Shown here in pieces: positions 3,532-10,958 of a stretch of 64,000 bases of DNA. Location of the stretch: positions 1 to 64,000 of the forward strand of contig BDTG01000039.1 of assembly GCA_002897695.1 (NCBI GenBank), read 5' to 3'. Within the stretch, counting starts at the first letter, position 1, and each line of letters starts with the position of its first letter. Origin of the DNA: a bacterium BMS3Abin14. Its GTDB lineage: Bacteria; BMS3Abin14. Both the position numbers and the translations under genes were made by a program. The notes below the pieces were generated by a model. That model was not told the origin of the DNA and did not search any database. It saw only the letters and a program-made list of their open reading frames with translations.

Positions 3532-4672
3532 TCATCCTTGCCGCATTTTGAGCGTCCGCGCGTTGATCGCGACAACAACAGTGCTCAGCGACATGAGGAG
3601 GGCACCCATGGCCGGGCTGAGGACAATGCCCTTGCCGGCAAGCACCCCCGCTGCCAGCGGGATAGCGAAGATATTGTAGCCCGTTGCCCATGCAAGATTC
3701 TGAACCATCTTGCGGTATGTGGCCCTCGCCAGTTCGAAAATAGCCGCCACGTCGCGGGGATCGCTGCGGACCAGGACAACGTCGGCCGTCTCCACAGCAA
3801 CATCGGTGCCTGCACCGATGGCAATTCCAAGATCGGCCGTTGCCAGAGCCGGCGCGTCGTTGACGCCATCCCCGATCATGGCAACTTTCTGGCCATCGTC
3901 CATTAGCTTCCTGATCGTGGCTGCCTTCTGGTCCGGAAGAACTTCCGCAAAGTACTCGTCAAGACCCAGGGTCCTGGAAACGGCGGCTGCCACCTTGCTA
4001 TGGTCCCCTGTAAGCATTACGCACTTGATCCCCATGGCATGGAGTCGCTCCACAGCCTCAACGGATGCGGGCCTTATAACATCACCCAGGGCAATGGCGC
4101 CCAGAAGGGCATCCCCCTCCAGCACGAAAACCACCGTTCGGAGGGACTTTGATCCCACGGGTGGATGCCTCGGCGACGACCCCCTTGGCAATGGGGTGCT
4201 CTGACAGGCTTTCCACCGATGCCGCGAGGCGAAGTATCTGATCCTCGGTCATGTTCTCAGAAGGGATGATCCCCTGGACCCCGAAAAGACCTTCAGTGAG
4301 AGTCCCGGTTTTGTCGAAAACCACCGCGGCGCTGTAGCCGTACGCCGATGATATAGCTACGGCGATAAGGGTCATCATCCCAGGCCGGCGGGCAGCAGCT
4401 TCGGTGAACAGACCCTTCAGGAACGGCCACCCACCGAAAAAATAAACCACTGAGGCCAGCACAAACAGGAGCAGGGAGTCGCCGGGAAAAACGATCCGGC
4501 CCTCGATCCCGAGAAACGACTGGATCATGGGGGACAGGGCGAGGACGGGGATCGTCAGGGCAAGGCAGACCTTGAATCGTCTCTTGTAATCTGCCACCAT
4601 GTGATCGTGGTGCGAAGCGTGCTCCTTGTGTTCCCCCTGCACTGGATGTGTCTGCATGTTATTTTTCTCCAT
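3532..4672 (-). pseudogene. Decayed CopB-like copper P-type ATPase with two internal deletions and a frameshift
   Basis: The 5' part (4672 to about 4150) encodes a His-rich N-terminus, three membrane helices, then jumps from AYGYSAAVVF straight to the phosphorylation motif DKTGTLTEG. The whole actuator domain (TGE motif), the next helices and the ion-binding CPC/CPH helix are missing, roughly 200 residues by family comparison. Part of the nucleotide-binding domain is also lost, and the frame changes near 4150. The 3' part (frame ending at 3532) has TGDHS, GDGVND and the last two helices. The 12-mer CGAAAACCACCG occurs at both junctions (4125-4136 and 4315-4326). Without ion-binding and actuator parts it cannot transport. 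It lies at the end of the copper operon. Confidence 0.85.
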
Positions 4673-4687
4673 GTCCCGAACCCTCCC

Positions 4688-5755
4688 TCAATGTCCTGTT
4701 TTCCTGAGGCTAAGAAGATGCTGCCTCGCAGCCATGGCCGCCTTCGCGCCCTCCCCGGAAGCAATGATTATCCTCTTTCCGAAAGCGTCGGTGACATCCC
4801 CGGCCGCAAAGAGCCCGGGACAGGACGTTGAGCAGTCGGGAGCAATGATGACCTCCCCGTTTTCATTGAGTTCGACAATATCCGAAACCAGCTGGGAGTT
4901 AGGCTGCAGGCCGATGGCAATGAATACGCCGCCGACCGGCAGGTTTAGCGTCTCCTTCCCGGCTATTTTTCTGATCGTCAAACCAGACAATGCATTCCCG
5001 CCTTTGAAATCAACCACCTTGTAGCCTTCGTAGAGGTTGAGGTTGTCGAACCTGCATATACGAGCGGCAAGCGACGGATCGGCGCTTAGTTTGCGGTCGG
5101 AGATAAGATGTATCTTTTTGACGATGGTCCGCACTTTCTCAACAATTTGCACGGCCGAATTCCCCCCTCCGATGATAGCGACATCCTCCCCGGTCACAAA
5201 TGAAAAATCCTGGATGTTGCCGTAAAAGAGCCCTTTTCTCTGGAACTCTTCCTCGCCGGGTACATCCAGTTTCCTCCTCGTCATACCGGTTGAAATGATC
5301 AGGACTCTCGCAAAATAGACCTTGGACTCCGATGTAGTAACATTGAAACCACCCCGGACATTTTCGACCTTATCCGTTTCGCCGATCAGGTGATCTATGT
5401 AATGTGAATGGATCAACTGGCGTTGAAATTTTTCAATCAGTTCAGGTCCCGTAATGAAGTTGAAACCCATGTAGTTCTCTACTTTCGTGCTGTCTATTGC
5501 CTGACCGCCAAGGTCCTTGGCCAGCAGGAAGGCATCAATTTTCAGCATATCCGCGTAGACAGCCGACGTAAGCCCGGCTGGACCGCCTCCGATGATTATG
5601 AGGTCATACGAGGAACGTGGAAGATTACAGGTCGTTTCTTTGAGAAACTTATCCCTGCAGCCTTCAGAGCAGAAATAAAAAATGTTTTTGTCACATTCCG
5701 TTGCAAGGGCGGTTCTTTCGTCGACATCCATATTGCATATGGGATCCTTTTTCAC
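4688..5755 (-). CDS. YHS-domain / thioredoxin-reductase-like flavoprotein fusion lacking the CxxC
   Basis: The 355-residue protein has an N-terminal YHS metal-binding module (DPICNMDV at 4-11, FYFCSEGCRDKF at 26-37), then a thioredoxin-reductase fold with the FAD motif GGGPAG (56-61), the NAD(P)H motif GGGNSA (196-201) and the FAD-closing AAGDVTDAF near the C-terminus. The redox CxxC expected between about 178 and 184 is absent: the sequence is LFYGNIQDFSF. The only cysteines near the N-terminus belong to the YHS module and C43. It starts with GTG at 5755 behind a strong GGGGGAGGA site. It is in the copper operon, 15 bases before the broken ATPase. A metal- or disulfide-directed reductase is an inference. 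Confidence 0.85.
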   Translation of the reverse strand: MKKDPICNMDVDERTALATECDKNIFYFCSEGCRDKFLKETTCNLPRSSYDLIIIGGGPAGLTSAVYADMLKIDAFLLAKDLGGQAIDSTKVENYMGFNFITGPELIEKFQRQLIHSHYIDHLIGETDKVENVRGGFNVTTSESKVYFARVLIISTGMTRRKLDVPGEEEFQRKGLFYGNIQDFSFVTGEDVAIIGGGNSAVQIVEKVRTIVKKIHLISDRKLSADPSLAARICRFDNLNLYEGYKVVDFKGGNALSGLTIRKIAGKETLNLPVGGVFIAIGLQPNSQLVSDIVELNENGEVIIAPDCSTSCPGLFAAGDVTDAFGKRIIIASGEGAKAAMAARQHLLSLRKTGH

Positions 5756-5813: not shown

Positions 5814-6935
5814 TCATGCTGTTCTGGTGGGATGTTCGCATCTGCACCAGACACACGTGCAGTTCGTATGGTTGCAGCTCTCGTCCTTGACCCTGTTGAC
5901 GTAATTTCTCCTGGCCAACGGATAAAGCAGATGTTTGACCGGGAGATGGTTGTAATGGCGCTTCAGTATCCTGTTGGGATCGTTATTTGCGAGCCTTCTC
6001 GCCATGAACCTGTACCCGGCATGGCCGAACCTTTCATACAGAAACCTGTTTATGAGAGAGGCTTCCAGCATGGGCCCAAGCTCATTTTTCCACAGAACAT
6101 CGTAGCTGGATTTTTCCATGATGCTCCTGGCGGCGAGGTAGCCTGACATGACCGAATACCTCATCCCGAAACCCCACAGGCAATCCTGAAACCCACCCGA
6201 TTCCCCGACGTAGAGCTTGTCGTTTCGGACCTGTGTATCCCGCAGGAAGAAATTGCCGAAGCCACCGAATTTCCTCTCGTTTCCGATATCCATTTCCATC
6301 GTTGTATTGAAAAAGCTGATCATATTCTCGAAGAACTCTTCGCCCCTGCGATAATTGCGGTAAAGGACTGTGGCCATGGTCCCATAGCCATCATTCACAA
6401 GAAGGTAAGCATAACCTTTGGAAGCAATATCATCATCAAGAACCACGATCGCCGTGTCTTCCATGGATGTGTCAAAGGTGATGCCCACGGCGATCACATC
6501 GGCCCCCTTCGGGCCGGTTCCCACTATGGCCGGCCCCGCAAGGTGATCCGTATTGTGTTCGAACAGTATCTCCGTGCCCAGCGCCTGGGCCTGTTCCTTC
6601 AGACCTGTGTCGAGAGTACCGGACATGGACCCCCTCTTAACGAGGTAAAAAATGGGCTTTTCAGACTTTATGGAAACAGGCTCCATCCCGCGGGAATGGA
6701 TGACTCCTCCAAAATAGGGCTCGCAGAGGAAGTTTATCTCGATACCCATATCCTTCAGCGTTTCGGTGATATCGACATCCGCACTCCAGTTTTCGAGCCC
6801 CTGAAAATCACCGTTCAGCCGGTGGCCGACATCAGGGGACTTCTCAAAAATCGTCACCGGAATGCCGTAACGACGAAGAACGATGGCGGCAACGAGCCCC
6901 GCCGGACCGGCGCCGATTATTTTCACCGTGTTCAT
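5814..6935 (-). CDS. Geranylgeranyl-reductase-like FAD oxidoreductase with Cys-rich tail
   Basis: The 373-residue flavoprotein has an N-terminal dinucleotide motif KIIGAGPAGLVAA, EKSPDVG closing the first beta-alpha-beta unit, and a distal VGESGGFQDCLWGFGMRYSVMSG segment like the GD/FAD-ribityl region of geranylgeranyl reductases and related halogenases. The last 20 residues hold five cysteines (354, 359, 361, 364, 366) with two histidines, a probable metal site unusual for the family. The ATG at 6935 is chosen over GTG at 6941 because AGGAGG lies 9 bases upstream. It sits in the copper operon between a DUF5676-like gene and the YHS flavoprotein. Substrate unknown. Confidence 0.75.
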   Translation of the reverse strand: MNTVKIIGAGPAGLVAAIVLRRYGIPVTIFEKSPDVGHRLNGDFQGLENWSADVDITETLKDMGIEINFLCEPYFGGVIHSRGMEPVSIKSEKPIFYLVKRGSMSGTLDTGLKEQAQALGTEILFEHNTDHLAGPAIVGTGPKGADVIAVGITFDTSMEDTAIVVLDDDIASKGYAYLLVNDGYGTMATVLYRNYRRGEEFFENMISFFNTTMEMDIGNERKFGGFGNFFLRDTQVRNDKLYVGESGGFQDCLWGFGMRYSVMSGYLAARSIMEKSSYDVLWKNELGPMLEASLINRFLYERFGHAGYRFMARRLANNDPNRILKRHYNHLPVKHLLYPLARRNYVNRVKDESCNHTNCTCVWCRCEHPTRTA

Positions 6936-6975
6936 GATCACTCCCCTCCTCGCGGTCCACAGTTTTTTGCTTCCC

Positions 6976-7221
6976 TCACAGGATCTTGTTGTAAACAGCC
7001 CCGAGTGCGTAGAGCAGAACGAAGCTTATGACAGCCGCCTCCACCATACCCCCGATGATCCCGAGAGGGCTGAGGGAAAATACCATGTGCCACTTCATCA
7101 TCATTTCCACGGCTCCTTCGTATATCCCCATGTTGCCCAGAATTCCGAGGAGCAGCATTACCGCCGCGGAAACGACAGCGCCCGACACACCAAGCGCCCG
7201 GGGATTCAGCTTTGCCTTCAT
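6976..7221 (-). CDS. DUF5676-like two-helix membrane protein
   Basis: This small protein of 81 residues has two clear membrane helices (about 11-35 and 50-75) joined by an amphipathic segment rich in methionine (EMMMKWHM). It resembles the DUF5676 family, short membrane proteins often found beside heavy-metal ATPases. The start has a perfect GAGGAGG site. It lies between the copper ATPase and the geranylgeranyl-reductase-like gene, all on one strand with short gaps. The Met cluster could contact Cu(I), but this is speculation. Confidence 0.7.
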   Translation of the reverse strand: MKAKLNPRALGVSGAVVSAAVMLLLGILGNMGIYEGAVEMMMKWHMVFSLSPLGIIGGMVEAAVISFVLLYALGAVYNKIL

Positions 7222-7334: not shown

Positions 7335-10325
7335 TCATATTTTGCGCTTGTATCTGCGCATCAGCAATGAGTTCGAAACAACGGACACGGAGCTGAACGC
7401 CATGGCCGCCCCGGCGATGATGGGGCTGAGGAGGAATCCAGTGAACGGATAGAGCACACCTGCCGCTATCGGGAGACCCAGGGCGTTGTAACCGAAGGCC
7501 CAGAATAGATTCTGTTTTATCTTGCGCATGGCGAAACTGGACAGGTCTATAGCCATTACCACATCACGGATGTCGTCTTTAATGAGGACGATGTCTCCGG
7601 ACTCTATTGCCACATCCGTTCCACTGCCGATGGCGATCCCGATGTCGGCCTGGATCAAGGCGGGAGCGTCGTTGACGCCGTCCCCGACCATGGCGACCTT
7701 GCGGCCATCGTCCTGAAGTTTTTTCACCTCCGCGGCCTTATCCTGGGGAAGCACCTCGCTGAGCACCCTTTTTATACCTACCTGAGCGGCGATGGCATCC
7801 CCTGTCCGCCTGTTGTCGCCTGTGATCATGATCACTTCCTTGCCCATCTTTTGAAGCGCCTTTACGGCAGCCAAAGAGTGTTCTTTCAACGTGTCGGCCA
7901 CGGCCAGAATCCCGGCAATCTTACCGTCCACTCCGACGATCATCGCCGTTTTGCCCTGGTTCTCAAGCTCGACCATCGCCTCGTCAGGGCCTTTCAGGTC
8001 CAGACCCATTTCAGTAAAGTAAGTACGGTTCCCGATGGCCACTTTCCGGTCGCTTACAGTGCCCTCCACGCCCTTCCCGGTGATGGAATGAAAGTCTTCG
8101 GGCGGCGTCAACTCCAGGTCCCTTGCCAGGGCGCCATCCACGATGGCCTCGCCCAGGGGGTGTTCGGAATTTTTCTCCACGGAAGCGGCCAGTTCCAGCA
8201 CCTGGTCGGATCCCCACTCCCCGAAGATTACAACGTCTGTCAACTCGGGTTCGCCTTTTGTGAGGGTTCCGGTCTTGTCGAACACGACCGTATTTATCTT
8301 ATGCGCCATCTGAAGCGCCTCGGCGCTCTTGATCAGAACCCCGTTCTTCGCTCCCAACCCGGTGCCCACCATGACGGCGGTGGGCGTTGCCAACCCCAGG
8401 GCACACGGGCAGGCGATGATGAGGACCGCAATGAATACGGTCAGGGCGAAAATAAAGCTTTGGCCGGCCAGCATCCAGACAGCGAAGGCCAGCAGGGCAA
8501 GCCCGACCACCACCGGCACGAACCAGGCCGAGATCAGATCGGCCAGGGCCTGGATAGGGGCCTTGGAACCCTGGGCTTTCTCTACAAGCTTGACGATCTG
8601 CGCCAGGGCCGTATCCTTGCCAACCTTGGTGGCCCTGAACCTGAATGATCCGGTCCTGTTGATGGTGGCCCCGATAACCTCGTCGCCAGTGGATTTTTCC
8701 ACCGGCATGCTCTCACCGGTGAGCATTGACTCATCCACCGCCGAATACCCTTCTACAATGACTCCGTCCACAGGAATCTTCTGACCCGGCTTCACCAGAA
8801 CCTCGTCTCCCGTCCGCACCTCCTCAACAGGTATCTCCATCTCCCGGCCGTCTCTCACAACCAGGGCCGTTTTGGCCTGTAGCCCCATCAGTGATTTTAT
8901 AGCCTCGGAGGTCTTCCCCTTGGCGATGGCCTCAAGCCATTTTCCTAATAGTATAAAAACGATGAGGAGTCCGGCAACCTCAAAATAAAAGTTTTCCGTG
9001 CTGTAGCCGCTTTTCCCTGACCAGATGGCTATCATAACCGTTGTGCTGTAGAGCCACGCGGCGCCTGTGCCAAGAGCTACCAGGGTGTCCATGGTGGCCA
9101 TTTTCGTCTTTATGACCGCGAGGATTCCACGAGTGTAGAACTGGTAGTTGACCAGAAGGATGGGGGTCGCCAGGAGGAACTGCAGGATGGCTTCCCATCT
9201 GTCGGGAATGTGGGGCACCGGGATGCCCACCAGGGGTCCCATGGTGAGAATAAGTAGTGGTATGCCCAGAATAGCAGAGAAGATGAACTTGAACTTGATG
9301 GTCTTTATCTCCCTTTCCCTCGCCTCCTTTTCCCTGTCCAGGGTCCCTTCTGTCTCCTCCAGAGGTGTGTATCCCGCGTCCCGTATCGTCTGGAGGATCT
9401 CTTCCCTGCTGACGACGGAAGGATCAAAGTCTATCCTGGCTCGCTCGTTGATGAACAGCTCCTTGGAATTGATCCCTTTCAGACTGTTCAGGGCGCCCTG
9501 GACCGTGCCCAGGCAGTGGGGATTGTCCATCCCCACAACCTTCAGGTTAAGGTGTCCGCCGGTGCGCTCCTCCCTGATGTGGGGTGTATACCCCGCGTCC
9601 ACGATGGCCTTTCCAAGATCCTGGTGAGAGACGGTGTCGGGGTTGAATTGGACCATCACAGATTCGGCCGCAAAGTTAACGCTTGCTTCCGACACGCCAT
9701 CCAGCTTCGACAGCGCTTTTTCTATGGTCGCCGCGCAAGACGCGCAGTGCATCCCCGTGATGCCGATGGTGACGCTCAGACCGGGCGCCTCCCTCAGGTG
9801 AGGGGTGTAACCGGCATCGGTAACCGCCTTCTCGATATCTGCTACGGAAATTTTCGCAGGATCATACTGAACCGAGGCGGATTCCGACGCGATGTTCACA
9901 CCGGCGCTATGGACTCCGTCCAGTTTTTTAATCGCTTTCTCCGTATTGATAGCGCAGGAAGCGCAGTGCATCCCGATTATGCCCATTGAGACAGACTTGG
10001 TCATCGGCTCGGCCTGATCTCCTGGCATGGGAATTTCACAGGCCGCGGCTGACTTGTCTGTCTCGAGTTCCATGTCCCGGGTTCCATGTTCCAGGTCACC
10101 GTTCTCTTCCTCCGGACTCACATGCCCTGAGCTTGTCGAAGGGTGGACTCCTGACTCTGGACTTCCGGCTCCGGAATCTTGAGTCAGGAATTTATCCCTG
10201 CATCCAGGGCTGCAAAAGTACCAGGTTTTCTTGTCCTTTTCCCCCGAAAGCGCTGTACTCACATCCACTTCCATGCCACATACGGGATCGACAACCTTTT
10301 TAACATCCGCATTTTCCGACTTCAT
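7335..10325 (-). CDS. copA: Copper-exporting P1B-type ATPase with N-terminal YHS and three HMA domains
   Basis: At 996 residues this is longer than usual. A YHS domain (about 10-48: [18 protein letters not shown]) is followed by a low-complexity linker (50-108) and two good HMA domains with GMHCASC (118-124 and 191-197). A third HMA has GMDNPHC in place of GMxCxxC and so has lost one ligand. The catalytic core is complete: TGES (about 536), CPC (639-641), DKTGT (683-687), [18 protein letters not shown] and the last two helices. The CPC helix and the YN/MxxSS pattern fit Cu(I)/Ag(I) export to the periplasm. It lies behind csoR and a CsoR-type operator, so induction by Cu(I) is expected. Confidence 0.93.
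10085..10185. repeat. Dispersed low-complexity repeat sequence inside the copA linker
   Basis: The DNA coding for the linker between YHS and HMA1 contains CCTGAGCTTGTCGAAGGG, whose reverse complement is nearly repeated in non-coding DNA at about 38857-38876 (CCTTCGACCAAGCTCAGG). It also holds TTCCATGT/CCATGTTCC and GACTCTGGACTTCCGG words like those in other intergenic spaces here. It is translated in frame, giving residues such as [10 protein letters not shown], so an intergenic-type repeat seems to have been absorbed by the gene. Confidence 0.55.
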
Positions 10326-10352: not shown

Positions 10353-10541
10353 TCATTGATTTGCCGAATCGCGGTCCTCCGGTCCGGCACCTGTCTTATC
10401 GTCTGTCTTATCGTCTGTCTTCTCACCGCCGCCATCATGCTTGCCGTGGCCGCCGTGGCCGCCGCAGCACCCGCCGCCTTTAAACATCATGTATCCCATT
10501 CCGCCAACGATAAGCAGTAAAAATAATGTGTTGAATGACAT
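10353..10541 (-). CDS. Small membrane protein with CCGGHGGHGKH metal-ligand cluster
   Basis: The 62-residue product has one N-terminal membrane helix (about 4-20), then GGGCCGGHGGHGKHDGGGEK, rich in Cys and His, and an acidic tail containing a duplicated DDKT from a 10-bp direct repeat. The start has a perfect AAGGAGG site. It lies between csoR and copA on the same strand. A helix with a soft-metal ligand patch next to a copper ATPase suggests a metal-buffering or chaperone-like role at the membrane; no family name is certain. Confidence 0.72.
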   Translation of the reverse strand: MSFNTLFLLLIVGGMGYMMFKGGGCCGGHGGHGKHDGGGEKTDDKTDDKTGAGPEDRDSANQ

Positions 10542-10619: not shown

Positions 10620-10880
10620 TCACCGGAACTTTGAAAGGAGTTCAAGCACTTCATCGACCTTGGCCCCCCTGTCCAGGGGATCGTCTCCGGTGAGAGAATC
10701 CCTCACGCAACTTTCAAGATGCCCTTTGAAGATGTTCTCCTGGACCCTTGCCAGGGCGTTTGACGCTGATCTGATCTGGGTCAGGATATCGACACAATAG
10801 CGACCCTCCCGGATCATCTTGCTAATACCCCTGATCTGGCCCTCTATCCTGTTGAGTCGAACGAGCTGTGCTTCATGCAT
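10620..10880 (-). CDS. csoR: CsoR-family copper-sensing repressor
   Basis: The 86-residue all-helical protein carries the Cu(I) ligand set of CsoR: C29 (RYCVD), H54 and C58 (GHLESC). The N-terminal LNRIEGQIRGISKMI is the family signature helix. The open frame runs to 10910, but ATG at 10880 is preferred because GGAGGGG sits just upstream and MHEAQLVRLNRIEGQ is the normal N-terminus. Apo-CsoR binds DNA, and Cu(I) releases it. A perfect palindrome placed inside its own promoter (10932-10953) suggests autoregulation and control of the whole run of downstream minus-strand metal genes. Confidence 0.93.
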   Translation of the reverse strand: MHEAQLVRLNRIEGQIRGISKMIREGRYCVDILTQIRSASNALARVQENIFKGHLESCVRDSLTGDDPLDRGAKVDEVLELLSKFR

Positions 10881-10928
10881 ATCAAATCCCCTCCATTGAA
10901 TTACAATCAATCCTGTCCTTGCGCCCTA

Positions 10929-10958
10929 CCTATACCATACCCCCCTATGGTATGTCAA
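10929..10958 (-). promoter_or_regulatory. Promoter of the csoR-copA operon
   Basis: On the minus strand TTGACA (10953-10958) is followed after 18 bases by TATAGG (10929-10934), a good sigma-70-type promoter about 50 bases before the csoR start. The spacer is almost entirely filled by the CsoR-like palindrome, so bound repressor would block polymerase. Confidence 0.75.
10932..10953. promoter_or_regulatory. csoR: CsoR-type operator
   Basis: ATACCATA, six C, TATGGTAT: a perfect inverted repeat with 8-bp arms round a G/C tract, the known architecture of CsoR operators. It overlaps the csoR promoter spacer. Confidence 0.8.

Follow-up and report, generated by a model that had tools for sequence, protein, structure and literature searches.

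A YHS-tagged, CxxC-less relative of AhpF and thioredoxin reductase in a copper gene cluster of the bacterium BMS3Abin14

The window analysed here, a stretch of 64,000 nucleotides, carries a flavoprotein gene within a same-strand cluster of copper-related genes. The features that matter for the argument are:

4688..5755, minus strand: YHS-tagged, CxxC-less flavoprotein of the thioredoxin reductase (TrxR)/AhpF type, 355 aa, GTG start
5636..5755, minus strand: its YHS module, aa 1-40, with D4, C7, C29 and C33 kept family-wide
4706..5611, minus strand: its FAD/NAD core, aa 49-350, nearest to AhpF and AhpF-like TrxRs
5207..5224, minus strand: its Y178-G-N-I-Q-D183 motif, in which GxxQ replaces CxxC and D183 is retained
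5153..5170, minus strand: its NAD(P)-binding motif GGGNSA, aa 196-201, with the HRRxxxR of NADPH enzymes absent downstream
10933..10952, minus strand: CsoR-operator-like palindrome of 20 bp with a G-tract, TACCATAGGGGGGTATGGTA, upstream of csoR
10620..10910, minus strand: CsoR-family repressor with C39/H64/C68, the Cu(I) C-H-C triad
7335..10325, minus strand: CopA-type P1B ATPase with a CPC motif and N-terminal YHS and HMA domains
6976..7221, minus strand: membrane-like ORF of 81 aa inside the cluster
5814..6941, minus strand: GGR-like FAD flavoprotein with the conserved Cys tail CxxxxCxCxxCxC
3532..4672, minus strand: broken copB-type P1B ATPase with a His-rich N-terminus

Read along the minus strand, the order is csoR, copA, the 81-aa ORF, the GGR-like gene, the YHS flavoprotein and the broken copB. 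By ORF coordinates, csoR is separated from copA by about 294 bp, and the gaps that follow copA measure 15-113 bp; the genes from csoR to copB presumably form one operon. The 20-bp palindrome is the sole copy in the window and did not occur in shuffled sequences at up to 3 mismatches; a scan with the short ACCC-N-GGGT operator stayed at chance level, so that the full 20-mer alone stood out. G-tract palindromes are the kind of site bound by CsoR (PMC3902906). In the csoR-copA gap, a small ORF (about 10360-10541, minus strand), as judged by eye, begins with hydrophobic residues and contains a stretch rich in Gly, Cys and His; its product is possibly a small copper-binding membrane protein. The copB gene differs from the intact 669-aa copy of a genus-mate (L058, 8271-10277) by a deletion of aa 124-358 (about 235 residues), which takes out the CPH membrane helix, and by the loss of aa 431-469 with a change of frame. 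In the tail of the GGR-like protein, C356, C361, C363 and C366 are invariant and C368 is mostly so. This second flavoprotein may likewise carry a metal-thiolate module; its gene lies beside 9 of 29 family members. Genome-wide, a P1B search found heavy-metal ATPase sequences in this cluster alone, namely copA and the broken copB; its other matches are weaker and resemble other P-type classes or HAD proteins in size and score. Likewise, YHS exceeds the cut-off genome-wide only in copA and in the flavoprotein, and these two modules are 59% identical over 39 aa.

An earlier note on this DNA had described the gene product as a TrxR-like flavoprotein fused to YHS, and Pfam supports both parts: Pyr_redox_2 covers aa 50-333 (E 1.7e-29) and YHS covers aa 3-40 (E 1.6e-6), the latter at 28.5 bits and thus slightly below the curated 30.3, with the same module reaching 31.9 bits, above the cut-off, in the whole-genome search. 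Its reading that the CxxC is gone while the dinucleotide sites are intact also holds. The CxxC position of TrxR and AhpF corresponds to aa 179-182, which read G-N-I-Q within KGLFYGNIQDFSF, and the FAD motifs GGGPAG and GDV are intact alongside the NAD motif GGGNSA. The protein scores 226.3 bits against the thioredoxin reductase profile TIGR01292 (curated cut-off 343.45) and 219 bits against the AhpF profile TIGR03140 (cut-off 503). The double-thioredoxin domain of AhpF is absent, and the 40-aa YHS module alone precedes the core, joined to it by a short linker of about 8 residues. No redox Cys pair of the class I (MerA-type) kind was found in the sequence, which reaches 49 bits against the NCBIfam MerA profile TIGR02053 (cut-off 454). 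The earlier note had further placed the only clustered cysteines in the YHS module; this stands for the cluster, but C308 is invariant across the family as well, and C43 and C312 occur in some members. As for the electron donor, it had proposed NAD(P)H. The search for the NADPH motif HRRxxxR in the flavoprotein found ISDRKLSAD at its place, so the donor would lean to NADH. Residues D4, C7, C29 and C33 match the YHS/TRASH ligand set D/C-x2-C-xn-C-x3-C, and we consider it probable from these residues that the tag binds copper. A sequence search for PDB relatives of the YHS part returned chance-level matches alone, including L24e (E 0.54).

Among solved structures, the profile matches rank AhpF cores first (206 bits) and TrxRs second (about 190 bits), with TrxR-like ferredoxin/flavodoxin reductases (FNRs) far lower at 123 bits or less; the flavoprotein ends no more than about 8 residues past the end of the PDB match, and most FNR chains extend well beyond it. 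In TrxR-like FNRs a C-terminal extension contributes an FAD-stacking residue from the partner subunit. An AF2 run with 21 close homologues gave a poor model (pLDDT 69, pTM 0.55); the better model, on a diverse alignment, came from adding 28 TrxR-like sequences from viral contigs (pLDDT 89.7, pTM 0.76), and Foldseek matched it to AhpF and TrxR chains in the PDB with TMt up to 0.88. The predicted fold is that of a low-Mr TrxR with both dinucleotide motifs.

The gene belongs to a family of at least 25 members from several phyla that are 48-88% identical. A genome scan yielded 23 loci, mostly 59-84% identical, in MAGs labelled Nitrospirota, Stahlbacteria, Deltaproteobacteria, Gammaproteobacteria and unclassified bacteria. 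Of the 12 genomes covered from the window's own family, which makes up a small phylum, 4 carry the gene, and a survey of 386 genomes (about 374 outside that family) added four more full-length members (G256, G118, G385 and G282) with a clear score gap between tagged members and untagged proteins. The motif YG-x-(I/V)-(Q/H)-D is present in all 22 members of alignment A1 and in four further ones (L125-L128), the most divergent of which, L128 (48% identity), has GxxH rather than GxxQ. Throughout A1, D4, C7, C29, C33, Y178, G179, Q182 and D183 are invariant, and the four YHS ligand positions are also legible in the longer copies of four further loci (L144-L147). Compared with the genus-mate's copy, the window's gene has a dN/dS ratio of about 0.12 (0.063/0.543), which indicates purifying selection. 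One homologue (L055, 6001-7094) is broken by an in-frame TAG or a frameshift and is either a pseudogene or a sequencing error. On plasmids, no YHS fusion was seen among the best 15 places listed, and no match reached 60% identity. We did not find a YHS-tagged, CxxC-less flavoprotein described in the open-access papers searched.

In a tree of the core alone, from which the YHS columns had been left out, all 25 tagged proteins form one clade with support of 100/100, which shows a single origin; this clade joins CxxC-bearing AhpF-like proteins at 100/100 and 100/99. Sites 179 and 182 are G and Q/H in 25/25 tagged proteins and C and C in 36/36 untagged AhpF-like and TrxR proteins. The loss of CxxC and the gain of YHS thus fall on one stem branch without exception among these proteins, which supports the link that the earlier note drew between the two. 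The homologue that would have marked the window's copy as a mere mutant, a close relative with CxxC, was not seen in the tagged family. Further clade-specific residues are Q203, R328, A280, Y119 and H122; site 328, which we take to lie near the flavin N1/C2=O, is Q in AhpF-like and nearly all TrxR sequences and R in the tagged clade. A separate set of TrxR-like proteins without CxxC (among them L100, L104, L112 and L143), one of which (WP_043976590.1) is annotated with a cNMP-binding domain, has Q203 in common with the YHS clade and R328 in 6/7 cases. A quick tree had favoured the two sets as a single clade, whereas a careful tree with long branches removed keeps them apart; since the test does not reject a joint clade (p-AU 0.13), CxxC was lost either once or twice.

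The copper linkage extends across the family. Heavy-metal P1B ATPase genes lie near 19 of 29 family loci, often directly adjacent, where about 1% would be expected from the window genome's own count in a 12-kb neighbourhood, although the loci are partly dependent (L058 is the genus-mate, and L041 and L057 share one assembly). CPH ATPases with a His-rich N-terminus adjoin the gene at L058, L035, L043, L052 and L054, and CPC P1B ATPases, often YHS-bearing, are found at others; of the 10 loci at which none was seen, most have a contig that is short or ends nearby. YHS-bearing signalling-type proteins, histidine-kinase-like or HD-GYP-like as judged by eye from their sequence starts, are also encoded near members (L044, 2368-3237; L052, 6040-6906; L144, 6191-7057), and YHS appears to have moved between proteins encoded in these copper regions. 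Small, Met-rich (MMGxGMM-like) and probably exported proteins recur near members as well (L038, 7281-7841; L042, 22-465; L053, 3728-4405). The link of the flavoprotein to copper is strong, and it very probably has some part in copper homeostasis.

We propose, with a probability of roughly 0.4, that the protein is an NADH-dependent copper-homeostasis flavoprotein whose electrons would pass directly from FAD to copper or to an oxidised thiolate on the YHS module. For this reading we infer copper as the ligand, a preference for NADH and an electron path from FAD to YHS. The hypothetical sequence would be as follows: (i) the protein would have descended from AhpF/TrxR-type enzymes; (ii) YHS would hold copper via D4, C7, C29 and C33; (iii) the FAD in the core would be reduced by NADH and, there being no core disulfide, the reduced flavin would hand its electrons straight to the YHS site; (iv) the electrons would there turn Cu(II) into Cu(I), or would reduce a YHS thiolate that had become oxidised; (v) copper kept as Cu(I) would be exported by the co-encoded P1B ATPases. 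Several precedents bear on individual steps. A YHS domain with Asp and three Cys as the proposed ligand set makes an adenylyl cyclase copper-responsive (PMC4626032), and the ligand spacing there, D+3 C+23 C+4 C, is nearly that seen here, D+3 C+22 C+4 C. E. coli NDH-2, likewise a flavoprotein from the broader superfamily, acts as a Cu(II) reductase (PMC1847454), and NmerA, a metal-binding tag on a flavoprotein reductase, delivers metal to MerA, as cited in PMC8261052. The reach of the relay is not assured, given a linker of just about 8 residues. Bacterial copper export proceeds mainly as Cu(I), whose reduced state is usually ascribed to bulk thiols. That cytosolic Cu(II) is mostly reduced anyway counts against the relay. 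A bolder form of the proposal, which we put forward tentatively, is that the catalytic disulfide of the TrxR/AhpF fold gave way to a fused copper-thiolate module, which would make the protein a dedicated NADH-driven copper (or copper-thiolate) reductase feeding P1B exporters and the first of a new class of pyridine-nucleotide flavoproteins.

Other readings place the electron acceptor elsewhere. The YHS module could sense copper and so turn the flavoenzyme on or off, while the electrons of NADH would go via FAD to a different acceptor such as oxygen, a quinone or a protein. The occurrence of YHS on non-redox enzymes favours such a role, namely on the histidine-kinase-like neighbours at L044 and L052, with the HD-GYP-like fusions beside members pointing the same way, and on the adenylyl cyclase that it renders copper-activated (PMC4626032); the other CxxC-less TrxR-like proteins, with their fused regulatory cNMP-binding domains, their common residues and the p-AU of the joint clade, can be added to this. 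However, disulfide loss and YHS gain coincide exactly, which speaks for a replacement more than for an added switch, and we regard the sensor as possible but on the unlikely side. Less probable still, the flavoprotein may serve as electron donor for a partner, for example the GGR-like protein, with YHS just docking or carrying copper. CxxC-less TrxR-like FNRs do reduce ferredoxin or flavodoxin (PMC10294844), and the GGR-like gene with its invariant Cys-rich tail is adjacent in the window; yet it is absent near 20/29 loci, and the copper ATPase is the commoner neighbour.

An ordinary ferredoxin/flavodoxin reductase of the TrxR-like kind, whose YHS tag would be incidental, would also lack CxxC (PMC10294844), but we consider this improbable in view of the ranking of profile scores, the seemingly early C-terminal stop relative to most FNR chains and the copper-locus linkage, which it leaves without explanation. 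A genuine TrxR was rejected, since the protein has neither CxxC nor the NADPH motif and stays below the profile cut-off, and since the same genome encodes another TrxR (L002), which keeps its CxxC as CATC and scores 363.3 bits against TIGR01292. All 15 family genomes searched hold at least one further TrxR-like match, counted irrespective of CxxC, so that other proteins probably carry out general disulfide reduction. We likewise rejected a degenerate TrxR that had mutated its CxxC away and was non-functional, or a MAG artefact. The broken neighbouring copB and the in-frame TAG of L055 would suit it, but GxxQ/H is kept in at least 25 members across phyla at a dN/dS of about 0.12, which leaves it a very slight chance.

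If the relay from FAD to YHS is correct, the step that keeps copper reduced would have a direct candidate in this NADH flavoprotein, which is conserved, brings its own metal module and is encoded in CsoR/CopA clusters of uncultured phyla. A TrxR-fold enzyme that loses its disulfide while gaining a metal site would offer a testable route to new electron acceptors, and the conserved swap of disulfide for tag, usually beside copper pumps, suggests that copper handling includes a redox step not described so far.

Of the characterised systems, the AhpF core (E. coli AhpF, PDB 1hyu/4o5q/1fl2) and the untagged AhpF-like TrxRs are the best match in sequence and fold (about 33% identity, Foldseek E about 1e-32). 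Like AhpF, the flavoprotein has a KxIIIAxGEGAKA tail, lacks the NADPH motif and carries a Cys-bearing N-terminal module on an FAD/NAD core; it differs by GxxQ for CxxC, YHS for the double-thioredoxin domain, R for Q at site 328 and a setting of copper rather than peroxide. With the YumC-type TrxR-like ferredoxin/flavodoxin reductases and the bacillithiol disulfide reductase YpdA it shares a TrxR fold without CxxC, although the profile score to these is much lower and the flavoprotein has a seemingly shorter C-terminus and the YHS module. The 'thioredoxin-disulfide reductase' with a cNMP-binding domain (WP_043976590.1) resembles it in the CxxC-less core, the N-terminal sensory-type domain, Q203 and, mostly, R328, but this type has another fused domain and sits on a long branch. 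MerA with NmerA likewise combines a soft-metal N-terminal tag with an NAD(P)H flavoprotein beside metal-resistance genes; in contrast to the flavoprotein, MerA retains its redox Cys pair and its tag is of the HMA type. The YHS-adenylyl cyclase of Mycobacterium phlei, finally, also bears a YHS with D and three Cys on an enzyme, copper-responsive in that case, whereas its YHS is C-terminal and attached to a cyclase.
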